From: Sediminispirochaeta bajacaliforniensis DSM 16054 | Lineage (GTDB): Bacteria; Spirochaetota; Spirochaetia; DSM-16054; Sediminispirochaetaceae | Assembly (NCBI RefSeq): GCF_000378205.1 | Contig: NZ_KB899412.1 | Coordinates: forward strand, 124,001-188,000 | Direction of reading: 5' to 3' | DNA: 64,000 bases | Shown: positions 27,939 through 33,213 of the stretch, in pieces | Position numbering within the stretch: position 1 is the stretch's first letter | Layout of the letters: each line of letters opens with the position of its first letter | Translations under genes and position numbers: made by a program | Notes under the pieces: generated by a model | What the model saw: only the letters and a program-made list of their open reading frames with translations | Told to the model about the DNA's origin: nothing | The model's database searches: none

Positions 27939-29309
27939 CTAAAGTGAACCGACCAGAGCCTTGAATTGATCTCCCCTGTCAAATTCATTCAGAAACATCC
28001 CGAAGGAGGTTGCGCCCGGGGAAAAAAGTACTACATCGCCGGGAGCGGCCTCTTCCTCGGCGCATCGGACGGCCTCTTTGAGGGAGCCAAAAGGACCTGA
28101 GAAGGGTAGGTCCCTGCTTTTTAGAATATCGGCCATCTTATCCGAGGCGCTTCCTTCCAAAAGAATCATCTTCTTCGGGACGGCCGCATAGCTTTCGAGG
28201 GGAGAAAAATCGAGATTTTTATCGGTCCCTCCGGTGATAAGTATCAAGGGAGCGGAAAAGCTCTTCACCGCCACGGCCGTGGCTTCGGGGATGGTTGATG
28301 CGCTGTCGTTGTACCACCGAACCTGCCGCTTTTCCGTAAGTAGTTCAAGCCTGTGGGGTATACCCCTAAAACCTGCCAACCTTTCTTTTATATCGCTGCC
28401 TGTTATACCGAAAAGTTTCAGCACCAAGGCCGCGGATAGAAGATTTAGCCGGTTGTGTTCCCCGCAAATGGCTATGTGCGCAGGCAGAATTTTTTCTTTA
28501 CCCGACGTATCCCTGTACCAACCGCTTCCGTCCTCGGCAAGCCAGGCCGAGACTCCCCTGGCAGCGTTCTCGTCCCGAAAAAAAGGGATTGGCTTTGCAG
28601 GGGTTTCGGAAGCAAATTCTACAGACCACGGGTCGTCTCCGTTTATTACGGTATAGGCCTCCTTGGTCTGGTCCGCATAGATGATCTTTTTGTCGGCAAC
28701 GTAGGCCTCCATGCTGTCGTAGCTGTTTTGATGATCATGCATAATATTGGTGATGAGCGAAACCACGGGCTTTAAAAGTCCCTTTCCCCGCAGGTCTGCA
28801 AGTTGCCAACTCGAAAGTTCAAGTATAACAGGCGCGTCACTTTCTGTTCTGCATTCGTCGATAAAGGTGAGGGGGCTGACTGTGATGTTTCCGCCAAGCC
28901 GGGCCTCAGGATAACGAACCTGTATGGCATGGAACATTGCGGAGACCACCGTTGATTTTCCTTTACTGCCGGTTACAGCAATGATGGGCCGATTATTGTG
29001 ACGCAGGAAAATTGAAATATCGCTTTCCACCCTTGCCGCCGTTTTCAGGTAGGGACTCGAAGCAGGAACAGCCGGATTTTTGACAACGATATCGGCTTCC
29101 GAAAAATCGCTCATTTCGTGTCGTCCTAGGACAAAACGAACGGGGAAAGGGGTGAGTTTTCTGATGCTCGGGCCGAGAATCTTTTCGTCCCGGAGGTCTG
29201 TGACCGTTACCTCTGCTCCTTCCTCTATGAAAAATCGAGCCGAAGCAAGGCCTCCTCCGTGGAGCCCAAGCCCCATGATGGTGACCTTCATTCCCTCGTA
29301 TTCAGTCAT
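27939..29309 (-). CDS. murD: UDP-N-acetylmuramoylalanine--D-glutamate ligase
   Basis: Adds D-Glu to UDP-MurNAc-L-Ala. N-terminal Rossmann-like domain (TIMGLGLHGGGLASARFF), P-loop ITGSKGKST-type AVTGSKGKSTV, LELSSWQLADL, ITNIMHDHQNSYDSMEAY, CGEHNRLNLLSA, and C-terminal YNDSASTIPEA and ITGGTDKNLDF. The ATG at 29309 is chosen over an upstream TTG; it overlaps the stop of the gene transcribed before it by 8 bases. 456 aa. Confidence 0.95.
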   Translation of the reverse strand: MTEYEGMKVTIMGLGLHGGGLASARFFIEEGAEVTVTDLRDEKILGPSIRKLTPFPVRFVLGRHEMSDFSEADIVVKNPAVPASSPYLKTAARVESDISIFLRHNNRPIIAVTGSKGKSTVVSAMFHAIQVRYPEARLGGNITVSPLTFIDECRTESDAPVILELSSWQLADLRGKGLLKPVVSLITNIMHDHQNSYDSMEAYVADKKIIYADQTKEAYTVINGDDPWSVEFASETPAKPIPFFRDENAARGVSAWLAEDGSGWYRDTSGKEKILPAHIAICGEHNRLNLLSAALVLKLFGITGSDIKERLAGFRGIPHRLELLTEKRQVRWYNDSASTIPEATAVAVKSFSAPLILITGGTDKNLDFSPLESYAAVPKKMILLEGSASDKMADILKSRDLPFSGPFGSLKEAVRCAEEEAAPGDVVLFSPGATSFGMFLNEFDRGDQFKALVGSL

Positions 29310-30252
29310 TGAACTCAACCAGGAACTCCTTCATATCGTGTTCATTAAGATAGGGTTTTACTATAAGGGGTTCCCATATTTTGTTCCAGTACTCCGGAAT
29401 CTGCTCCTTGATCTGACTGAATTGCGGTAGGTTAACGGAAAAGGTTTTCCGTTTTAGGGTTTCCTGCATCGTCTCAATGTGTTGAGCCAAAACGGATCGT
29501 GCCTGAACGGCAATGTGAAGGTGGCGTTTCCTCCCTTCGGGCGAAAGGTTGAGCACGGAATGGCAGATCGATCGGTGTTTACAACTGAAAGGGTAGTAGG
29601 GGTAACTTTTTTTGCCGTTCGGAAGCATCAGTTTGGAAAAGAATTTCGTGAGGTCGTGATCCATCCATATTCCCTGAACGATGTAGCCTCTGCCGCTTTC
29701 GCCTATCCATGTTTGGCTGACCGATTGCTCTATGCTACAGCCAACCACTTTGCCTTCTTCTATTGCCAAGCCGGAAAGAGGAATCAGATCACACTCCAAA
29801 AAAAGCTTCCGTGACTGGAAGCAGTGACTTAGGTCGTTGTCTCCCTGTTCTATGATGGAGGCCTCACTGGGACGATAACGAAGATCGAGCCGAACGAGAT
29901 AAAGATAATATGCCTCGTTTATTTTGTAGATATGAAAAAACAGGGGACGAAAAATCTCCGTCGGATCGAAGACATAACTCAGATGTGTAAAAACCGAAGG
30001 ACAAAGCGGCAAAATTTGTTCTAAAAGGCCGATCACTGCACTCCTGTAGCTATCCGAAGGTCCCGGATTGTCGACATCGTGATGGATGGGGAATTGCGGT
30101 ACCTTGAAAGGGCCCTGAAGCTTGAGAAAGAATTCTTCATTCTGGTTGAAATGAAGCGTGTAGCCTACTTCCTCCGATGAGATACTTTTTAGCATGTTGT
30201 TTATCTGGGGATCGGCCCAGCCGAATGTGAATTCCCCCGGTGCCCCTTGCAT
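29302..30252 (-). CDS. Hypothetical protein upstream of murD
   Basis: A 316-aa soluble protein I do not recognise. It lacks a signal peptide and membrane segments. Features: several aromatic clusters (IHHDVDNPGPSD, RPLFFHIYKINEAYYLYLVRLDLRY), a Cys/His group in PFSCKHRSICHSVLN that could bind metal or be incidental, and a predicted helical C-terminus. The ATG at 30252 is chosen because it lies 7 bases after a TATGAT box paired with TTGCAA at 17 bases; the frame is open to a TTG at 30288 that sits in that -35 box. It is coupled to murD by an 8-base overlap. Confidence 0.7.
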   Translation of the reverse strand: MQGAPGEFTFGWADPQINNMLKSISSEEVGYTLHFNQNEEFFLKLQGPFKVPQFPIHHDVDNPGPSDSYRSAVIGLLEQILPLCPSVFTHLSYVFDPTEIFRPLFFHIYKINEAYYLYLVRLDLRYRPSEASIIEQGDNDLSHCFQSRKLFLECDLIPLSGLAIEEGKVVGCSIEQSVSQTWIGESGRGYIVQGIWMDHDLTKFFSKLMLPNGKKSYPYYPFSCKHRSICHSVLNLSPEGRKRHLHIAVQARSVLAQHIETMQETLKRKTFSVNLPQFSQIKEQIPEYWNKIWEPLIVKPYLNEHDMKEFLVEFND

Positions 30253-30259
30253 CAGTCCT

Positions 30260-30288
30260 ATCATACGATACGCTTTAAACCATTGCAA
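30260..30288 (-). promoter_or_regulatory. Promoter of the hypothetical-murD unit (leaderless type)
   Basis: On the - strand: TTGCAA (30288-30283), 17-base spacer, TATGAT (30265-30260), 7 bases to the ATG at 30252. AGGA within those 7 bases could also act as a weak ribosome site. Confidence 0.55.
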
Positions 30289-30312
30289 CGTGTTATGAAG
30301 CGAGGTCTCCCC

Positions 30313-30341
30313 TTGACGAGTTCGGAGTCAATGGTCATAAT
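30313..30341 (+). promoter_or_regulatory. Promoter of the small ribosomal protein gene
   Basis: TTGACG (30313-30318), 17-base spacer, CATAAT (30336-30341). It lies 34 bases before the start codon at 30375, leaving a normal leader with AAAGGAG at 30359-30365. Confidence 0.55.
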
Positions 30342-30374
30342 TGCCAAAGGACTACAGGAAAGGAGTGTGACGAG

Positions 30375-30464
30375 GTGCCCTGCGGAAGAAAACGTAAACG
30401 ACATAAAATCGCCACCCATAAGCGCAAAAAGAAATTGCGCAAGAATCGGCATAAGAAAAAATAG
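30375..30464 (+). CDS. Small AURKAIP1/COX24-domain ribosomal protein (bS22-like)
   Basis: A 29-residue, extremely basic peptide: begins MPCGRKRKRHKIATHKRKK and ends RKNRHKKK; 17 of 29 residues are Lys or Arg. This matches the pattern of the AURKAIP1/COX24 family, which in mycobacteria is ribosomal protein bS22 and in mitochondria mS38, located near the decoding site of the small subunit. GTG start at 30375 with AAAGGAG about 9 bases upstream and a promoter before it. It lies 9 bases before the FlgH-like gene. Family assignment rests on size, composition and the KRKK-HK-R pattern. Confidence 0.8.
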   Translation: MPCGRKRKRHKIATHKRKKKLRKNRHKKK

Positions 30465-30473
30465 GGACACGGC

Positions 30474-31217
30474 GTGACCGGGTACGGAAGCTTACGTTCA
30501 AGTTTTGGTCGGTTTATTCTCATACTTTTAGTTGGACCGATGGTGCTTGGCGCCGAGTCTCTCTGGAAGCCCGGTTTTCCCGGATACGCCGCTGCTGGCG
30601 GCGGTCACGGGATGGGGGACCTTATCTCGGTTCTTCTTGATGCCGATACCGTACTTTCTCTCAATTCGGTTCAAACTTCCGACGATACAACGCAGTTGAG
30701 CTTTTCCGGCGGAGACGCCGGAGAGCTTACTTCGTTTTTGCCGTCTGCCGATTCTTCATCGAATCGGTCGGTAGAGGCGAAGCATGATCTTTCTTTCTCA
30801 ACCTCCCTTGCAGCAAGGGTTATTGGGAAGGATGATAGTGGTGCGCTTCTGATCAGCGGTCGACGGCAGATACTCATTAATGGCACAAGGGAGGAAGTTT
30901 CCATTGAAGGAACGGTTGCTCCCGATGCTGTTGTAGAGGGGGGCGTCCGATTCGAGGATATAGCCGATGCCAAGCTTGTCTATCTCACGAATGCTTTTCC
31001 TGCCGGAGAGGTATTGGGTGAGAATGATCTTCGCTATGACACCGTTCCTCCTGTTGTCGCTTCTGATGGGGCTCAAGGGGCGGCGGATCAATCCGTCTCT
31101 GGTGAAAATTCCCGTCCTTCCCTTAGTCAGCAGCGGCAAAGAGAACTTCTCCGTGCATATATGAACCGTTTTCTGCAGCTTCTGTTTCCCGTCGATTCTC
31201 CCCCTTCTGTTCCCTGA
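30474..31217 (+). CDS. FlgH-like (flagellar L-ring protein family) exported protein
   Basis: A 247-aa exported protein with signal sequence FGRFILILLVGPMVLGAES. The middle matches the FlgH pattern: SLWKPGFPGY, GDLISVLLDADTVLSLNS, a Ser/Gly-rich stretch, SLAARVIGKDDSGALLISGRRQILINGTREEVSIEGTV-type strand series ending VRFEDIADAKLVYL. FlgH normally builds the outer-membrane L ring. It lacks a lipobox, which FlgH usually has, and it is far from other flagellar genes. Spirochaete flagella are periplasmic, so a classical L-ring role is doubtful. GTG start at 30474, 9 bases after the preceding stop. The C-terminal 35 residues (QQRQRELLRAYMNRFLQLL) are an extra helix. Confidence 0.68.
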   Translation: MTGYGSLRSSFGRFILILLVGPMVLGAESLWKPGFPGYAAAGGGHGMGDLISVLLDADTVLSLNSVQTSDDTTQLSFSGGDAGELTSFLPSADSSSNRSVEAKHDLSFSTSLAARVIGKDDSGALLISGRRQILINGTREEVSIEGTVAPDAVVEGGVRFEDIADAKLVYLTNAFPAGEVLGENDLRYDTVPPVVASDGAQGAADQSVSGENSRPSLSQQRQRELLRAYMNRFLQLLFPVDSPPSVP

Positions 31218-31251
31218 TTTTGTTTTGTTTTCTCAGGAGGTTTTTCGCCTT

Positions 31252-33213
31252 ATGCGGGCCGAACAAAACGGCTATCTTCATGCTATTCACTCGCCGGACG
31301 ATCTTAAACGGCTGCCTTCGGGGTCGCTTCCCTTTCTTGCAAAGGAAATCCGTGAGCGTATCATTCATGTTGTTCAGAAGAACGGCGGCCATCTTGCATC
31401 CAACCTTGGGGTGGTTGAGTTGACCATTGCCCTTCATAGGGTTTTTTCTACTCCGAAGGATAAGATTATCTGGGATGTAGGCCATCAATGTTATACTCAC
31501 AAGCTGCTTACCGGCCGTGAGGATCGTTTCGATACCATTCGGAAGAAGGATGGTTTAAGCGGTTTTCCAAAGCGGAGTGAAAGTATTCACGACGCCATGG
31601 ATACGGGCCACTCCTCGACCTCGATTTCGGCGGGTTTAGGAATCCTTACCGGCATGCGGCTTTCCGGTGATTCAGAAGGAAAGGTCGTTGCTGTTATCGG
31701 TGACGGTGCAATGACCGGCGGCATGGCATTTGAGGCACTGAACCACGCAGGAGACCTTGCAAAAGACCTTATCGTCGTCTTTAACGATAACAACTGGTCT
31801 ATCAGCCCTAATGTCGGGGGCCTTTCGGTTAATTCAAATCTAAGTAAACTATCCGCATCGGTTTCCAAATTAACGACGACAAGGTTTTATCAATCCCTTC
31901 GCAAATACATCGACCGCGGATTACGGGGGATCCCTTTTCTCGGCTACAAGCTTTACGAACTTTTTATACGGTTTAAGAAAGCCTTGAAAGCTGTTGTCTT
32001 TAAAGAGACGATTTTTTCCGAACTCGGCTTTGAATATGTTGGGCCCATAGATGGCCATTCGATCAGCAGGCTTACCGAGGTTTTTGAGGCTGTCCGCCAT
32101 CTGCATAAGCCGGTGATTGTGCATGTGATTACGCAGAAAGGACGGGGCCACTCTCTTGCCGAGGTAAATCCCACGGCCTATCATGGGGTTTCTCCCATGG
32201 TTGCGGTGGATGGAAAGATCGAGCGAAAGAGTGTTATGACCTTCACCGAGGTTTTTGCCGAATCCTTGATGCGTGAGGCTGAACAACGATCCGAAATTGT
32301 CGCAATCACTGCCGCCATGTGCGAAGGAACCGGGCTTTCTTCTTTTCGTGAAAGCTACCCCGATCGTTTTTTTGATGTCGGAATCAGTGAGCAGCATGCT
32401 GTTACCTTTGCAGCGGGACTTGCAGCATCGGGAATGCGACCTGTTGTGGCCATCTATTCCACCTTCATGCAAAGGGCGGTGGACCAGGTGATCCACGACG
32501 TAGCACTTCCCTCACTTCCTGTGCTGTTCTGCCTCGATAGATCGGGACTTGTCGGTGCCGACGGTGAGACTCATCAGGGGCTTTACGACCTTTCGCTTTT
32601 TCTCTCGGTTCCCGGGATGACACTCCTTGCCCCTGCAGGAAAGGAGGAACTCCCTCTCATGCTTGCATATGCCCTTACCCTTGACGGCCCCTGTATGATA
32701 CGGTACCCCAAAGACGCCTGTCTTCCTCTTGGAGAGGCTTGTTCCCGTCCTATTGAAAAGGGACGCGGAGTATTCCTGCGAGAGGAAGGCGGAGACGTGC
32801 TTATTCTATCCTACGGCGCGAGCTGTGCACAGTGCGTCGGAGCCGCCGATCTTCTGGAACGAGAGGGGGTTGGGGCCGATGTTTGTAACATACGTTTTGC
32901 CAAGCCCATTGATGAAGAGTGGCTGCTCGACAGTTGTGCCAGTTATCGTACACTCATTATTGTAGAAGAGGCATCATCAATCGGGGGTATTGGAGAGTAC
33001 CTGATTGCACTTATATCAAGATATCATGCAGATATTGATCTTTTTCACTTTGGTGTTCCCGATCGTTTTTTGCCGCATGCCTCTCGAAGAGAACTTTTGT
33101 CTTCCGTTGCCCTTGATGCCGAGGCAATAGCCGGAAGGGTCCGACTCTGTCTTGCCGAACGGGAGACATTCGGCAGCAAATCCGAAAGCTGGGGCTATCA
33201 AGGTAAGGAGTAG
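31252..33213 (+). CDS. dxs: 1-deoxy-D-xylulose-5-phosphate synthase
   Basis: Thiamine-diphosphate enzyme, first step of the MEP isoprenoid pathway. Seen: NGGHLASNLGVVELTIALH, VGHQCYTHKLLTGR, the ThDP motif GDGAMTGGMAFEALNHAG with DNNWSISPNVGG, then the transketolase pyrimidine domain (GISEQHAVTFAAGLA, FCLDRSGLVGADGETHQG) and the C-terminal domain. Start: ATG at 31252 with CAGGAGG about 11 bases upstream; a TTG at 31225 is also in frame. 653 aa. The later pathway gene dxr is at 44.5-45.7 kb. Confidence 0.95.
   Translation: MRAEQNGYLHAIHSPDDLKRLPSGSLPFLAKEIRERIIHVVQKNGGHLASNLGVVELTIALHRVFSTPKDKIIWDVGHQCYTHKLLTGREDRFDTIRKKDGLSGFPKRSESIHDAMDTGHSSTSISAGLGILTGMRLSGDSEGKVVAVIGDGAMTGGMAFEALNHAGDLAKDLIVVFNDNNWSISPNVGGLSVNSNLSKLSASVSKLTTTRFYQSLRKYIDRGLRGIPFLGYKLYELFIRFKKALKAVVFKETIFSELGFEYVGPIDGHSISRLTEVFEAVRHLHKPVIVHVITQKGRGHSLAEVNPTAYHGVSPMVAVDGKIERKSVMTFTEVFAESLMREAEQRSEIVAITAAMCEGTGLSSFRESYPDRFFDVGISEQHAVTFAAGLAASGMRPVVAIYSTFMQRAVDQVIHDVALPSLPVLFCLDRSGLVGADGETHQGLYDLSLFLSVPGMTLLAPAGKEELPLMLAYALTLDGPCMIRYPKDACLPLGEACSRPIEKGRGVFLREEGGDVLILSYGASCAQCVGAADLLEREGVGADVCNIRFAKPIDEEWLLDSCASYRTLIIVEEASSIGGIGEYLIALISRYHADIDLFHFGVPDRFLPHASRRELLSSVALDAEAIAGRVRLCLAERETFGSKSESWGYQGKE

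Follow-up and report, generated by a model that had tools for sequence, protein, structure and literature searches.

The window analysed here is a stretch of 64,000 nucleotides from Sediminispirochaeta bajacaliforniensis DSM 16054 (contig NZ_KB899412.1, positions 124,001 to 188,000). The gene under study and its surroundings comprise the following features, in window coordinates:

29302..30288, minus strand: divergent gene with a 328-residue product, no Pfam match, with a MurD-like gene beyond it (context only)
30313..30318, plus strand: -35 element TTGACG; 32 of 39 loci have a promoter scoring 10/12 or better
30336..30341, plus strand: -10 element CATAAT after a spacer of 17; CATAAT in 20 of the 32 promoter-bearing loci, unchanged in the congeneric genome G296
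30360..30365, plus strand: Shine-Dalgarno sequence AAGGAG, 9 nt before the GTG; 37 of the 39 homologous loci have a similar motif
30375..30464, plus strand: bS22 coding sequence, GTG start, TAG stop, 29 amino acids
30474..31217, plus strand: FlgH family (flagellar L-ring protein) gene downstream of bS22, PF02107, E = 2.6e-16 (context only)
31225..33213, plus strand: dxs, 1-deoxyxylulose-5-phosphate synthase, PF13292, E = 6.4e-113 (context only; frequently close to bS22 in spirochaetes)

The frame opens with the GTG at 30375, which is the first possible ATG, GTG or TTG start within it, continues through 28 more sense codons and ends with a TAG at 30464. Its product is MPCGRKRKRHKIATHKRKKKLRKNRHKKK. 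Lysine, arginine and histidine make up 69% of the residues, and no other of the window's 630 ORFs with 20-60 codons is as basic, the runner-up reaching 45%. A single copy is present in the genome. An earlier note on this DNA had described a basic gene of 29 codons here, with KRKRHK and RKNRHKKK patterns; its coordinates, frame, length and product all proved correct, and both patterns were found in the peptide.

None of the flanking genes is ribosomal. A dxs match starts no more than 1.1 kb downstream in 14 of 39 homologous loci and in 19 of the 54 named loci with spirochaete titles (among the matches listed), while 18 of the 39 have an upstream MurD match on the opposite strand. The order bS22, FlgH-family gene, dxs recurs in three loci (L036, L037 and L107), and the 328-residue protein is kept as divergent neighbour in loci L006, L033-L037, L044 and L107.

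Conservation and expression signals

Searches with the single sequence (E ≤ 0.01) matched 251 of 296 genomes of the phylum, 208 of the 231 genomes of good quality and 20 of 21 close relatives, which bears out the earlier claim of a real gene. One of these matches, G248:C11:867605-867691, begins at the coordinate of bb0822 that PMC10618245 gives for Borrelia burgdorferi. A profile search (E ≤ 0.1) raised the count to 253 of 296. The gene is therefore not universal in the phylum, since 43 of the 296 genomes gave no match even to the profile. These include G026, an assembly of one contig with 99% completeness, and some lineages thus seem to be without bS22; the gene has apparently been lost or has strongly diverged in them. 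In G005, G010, G014, G018, G026, G030, G045 and others, bS21 is present and no bS22 match was obtained. A pattern scan of named genomes (at least 117 stretches) found the type also in Bacteroidota, Ignavibacteria, Fibrobacterota, Omnitrophota, Gemmatimonadota and others.

Two sets of loci were compared: the best-scoring matches (L001-L039, window and congener included) and those drawn, among the matches listed, by a pattern fixing most of MPCGRKRK and THKRK (L040-L156). Invariant columns in the latter are partly built in, because the pattern itself fixes those residues, and the two sets seem to share several genomes. For the codon test we selected 15 loci with an identical core of 27 residues. 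Over their 105 pairs, the differences at first, second and third codon positions numbered 344, 0 and 1271. The core in the window is identical to that of the congeneric genome G296 and differs from those of the other 13 loci at 13-21 of 81 bases, all silently; random sets of mutations stayed silent in 0 of 5000 trials in each of these 13 comparisons.

The expression signals are conserved as well. Within 120 nt upstream, a promoter scoring at least 10/12 was found in 32 of the 39 best-scoring loci versus 2.7% of shuffled sequences. Most of these promoters carry CATAAT as the -10 element, with C replacing the consensus T, and in most the last base of the -35 element is C, G or T. Among the matches listed, the promoter test was passed by 23 of 54 named loci with spirochaete titles and by 9 of 61 others, titles having been sorted by hand. 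The promoter (TTGACG-17-CATAAT) and ribosome site proposed in the earlier note were both located.

GTG is the start codon in 33 of the 39 loci and, among the matches listed, in 52 of the 54 spirochaete-titled named loci, while the other 61 named loci have ATG (58) or TTG (3); two of the 156 loci (L071 and L134) failed the peptide filter and were left out of these start-codon counts. In a control with bL34 from 19 relatives, the start at the conserved core, or directly ahead of it, is ATG in 18 and GTG in one. A GUG start had already been noted for Borrelia bS22 (PMC10618245). As far as a limited literature search goes, what is new is the use of GTG throughout the lineage, the conservation of the promoter and the distribution across the phylum, gaps included.

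Similarity to ribosomal proteins of solved structure

Scans of the peptide against Pfam and NCBIfam gave no match. It aligns over its full length with three distinct chains from solved ribosomes (8FMW, 7JIL and 9I5V; E = 8e-9 to 1.9e-8), and the best profile match to solved bS22 chains reached E = 4.4e-14 with a profile that includes the 7JIL and 9I5V sequences. Because the peptide consists of 69% K/R/H, these matches were compared with 2000 composition-preserving shuffles; none reached the observed scores (z = 14.7-15.1 against the three chains). Chain V of 8FMW is the bS22 of B. burgdorferi according to PMC10618245, whereas the depositors named 7JIL and its relatives S22 or L38 and 9I5V "AURKAIP1/COX24 domain-containing protein". 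A full-length match to a chain solved in the ribosomal pocket, together with a conserved single-copy gene in the lineage, assigns the window protein to the Borrelia/Bacteroidota type of bS22.

The closest counterpart is that of Borrelia (Borreliella) burgdorferi, also a spirochaete (bb0822). Both proteins share the MPCGRKRK start, the THKRKKK core and the RKNRHKK end, and both genes use GUG; however, the Borrelia protein has LKKIS where the window protein has RHKIA. The Flavobacterium johnsoniae-type bS22 (7JIL chain 5) and 9I5V chain 10 also align over the full length (E about 1e-8) but begin with MPSGKK or MPNGKK, and most non-spirochaete loci (among the matches listed) start with ATG, unlike the GTG seen here.

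The earlier note had placed the product in the AURKAIP1/COX24 family, which the profile searches did not confirm. Pfam COX24_C (PF08213) gave no match in the S. bajacaliforniensis genome, whereas it did in the control, Corynebacterium glutamicum, and none to the peptide itself; it matched 3 of 38 relatives with a best E value of 0.26, and the score stayed below the family cut-off. The overall interpretation in the note accordingly is borne out for a real bS22 gene with its own promoter but not supported for membership in the AURKAIP1/COX24 sequence family. This label is one of structural likeness only: it rests on place and shape, not on detectable sequence likeness.

Alternative readings and the proposed role of bS22

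We conclude, with a probability of about 0.96, that positions 30375-30464 encode a genuine bS22, a small-subunit ribosomal protein, belonging to the Borrelia/Bacteroidota sequence type and preceded by a promoter of its own. That the frame is instead a chance basic ORF, and that the real genes are the overlapping ORFs at 30247-30477 (plus strand), 30261-30470 (minus) and 30335-30523 (minus), or none at all, would account for the presence of such ORFs of 49-76 codons and for an antisense frame that runs open through this region in 36 of the 39 loci. However, this opening is to be expected from the AAR and CGN codons, Pfam recognised none of these three overlapping ORFs, and stops interrupt the +1 frame in 24 and the +2 frame in 37 of the 39 loci. 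The second codon positions, invariant in the 15 loci chosen for their identical core, and the conservation of the sense frame across the phylum run directly against chance, which we regard as having a negligible share of the probability. Hardly more credible is that the basic peptide mainly does something else, for example as an antimicrobial peptide or as a nucleoid or toxin-antitoxin element. The free bS22 peptide of Cutibacterium acnes does inhibit bacterial growth and cell-free translation, as PMC10085706 reports, but very similar chains are located in solved ribosomes, and a gene that is single-copy, widespread and slow to change in its protein suits a ribosomal part.

A different matter, compatible with the bS22 identity, is whether the window protein forms one homologous family with AURKAIP1/COX24/mS38 and actinobacterial bS22. 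According to PMC10618245 these proteins share a pocket, and mS38 bends where the bS22 of Borrelia, Flavobacterium and Mycobacterium does; database names also carry the AURKAIP1/COX24 label. The bS22 of Mycobacterium smegmatis and C. acnes is also alike in size and basic character. Its sequence likeness to the window protein, in contrast, is no greater than composition gives: hhalign returned a probability of 1.3%, BLASTP produced no alignment and z was 0.8 (440 and 411 of the 2000 shuffles scored as well), all three comparisons having low power for a low-complexity protein of 29 residues. Together with the failure of COX24_C, an equally weak test at this length, this leaves a single family plausible, at somewhat less than even odds. 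A more far-reaching and rather improbable proposal is that bS22 comprises two families that arrived separately at the 16S pocket (spirochaete/Bacteroidota/Omnitrophota versus actinobacterial/mitochondrial), and that in spirochaetes a conserved non-AUG start, read by initiation factor IF3, limits how much bS22 is made, just as one does for bS21, its neighbour in the 30S subunit.

The bS22 gene is sound but not new, since ribosomes of the Lyme disease spirochaete were found in 2023 to contain the protein, which has been known in the phylum from that time. The 70S structure of B. burgdorferi (PMC10618245) contains an unannotated, GUG-started bS22 with 61% K/R, identified by cryo-EM density, sequence fit and conservation; mass spectrometry in that report detected all ribosomal proteins except bS22, and the gene is among the essential candidates of a transposon library cited there. 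The protein sits in a pocket of 16S h2, h27, h44 and h45 and contacts 23S H68. Similarly, C. acnes bS22 occupies a cavity of h27, h44 and h45 and forms a new inter-subunit bridge (PMC10085706), and mycobacterial bS22 lies near the decoding centre and has been compared with eL41 and mS38 (PMC6133939, PMC6582356). The latter two fill the corresponding small-subunit pocket (PMC10618245, PMC6582356), although mS38 is longer and eL41 unbent relative to bS22 (PMC10618245). The earlier expectation of a decoding-site protein in spirochaete ribosomes was therefore right, though already demonstrated for Borrelia, and the remark that such genes often go unannotated likewise holds.

By analogy with the Borrelia protein, we infer the same pocket position and role in S. 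bajacaliforniensis. The sigma-70-type promoter and strong ribosome site would drive translation from the GUG, and the very basic peptide would form a bent helix below the decoding site, in the pocket of h2, h27, h44 and h45, touching helix H68 of the 23S RNA in the 70S ribosome. Because of this position and contact, bS22 may hold the base of h44 and add an inter-subunit contact, probably working like the C-terminal helix of mS38. The present analysis extends a finding in one genus, Borrelia, to most of the phylum and gives gene-finding programs the start codon and promoter required for annotating bS22.

Start codon of rpsU (bS21)

The rpsU loci of relatives (L180-L199, with the genome's own copy as L193 at G000:C25, about 27650) appear to show a further departure from AUG. 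Six of 20 relatives (L184, L185, L186, L188, L191 and L199), which belong to six different families, have no ATG, GTG or TTG in frame from the preceding stop up to the conserved rpsU core. All six have ATC where L182 has ATG, preceded in most of them by an extended Shine-Dalgarno sequence (such as AAGGGGGTGAT). Extended Shine-Dalgarno sequences and autoregulation are known for rpsU of Bacteroidia (PMC9976891); a limited literature search found no report of an AUC or AUA start of this gene. The rpsU start codons may merit more attention than bS22. In most other rpsU loci, including that of S. bajacaliforniensis, the nearest in-frame start is a GTG inside the Shine-Dalgarno sequence, followed by ATA or ATC, and judging from these sequences the start codon of bS21 in the relatives and in this genome is apparently AUC or AUA.
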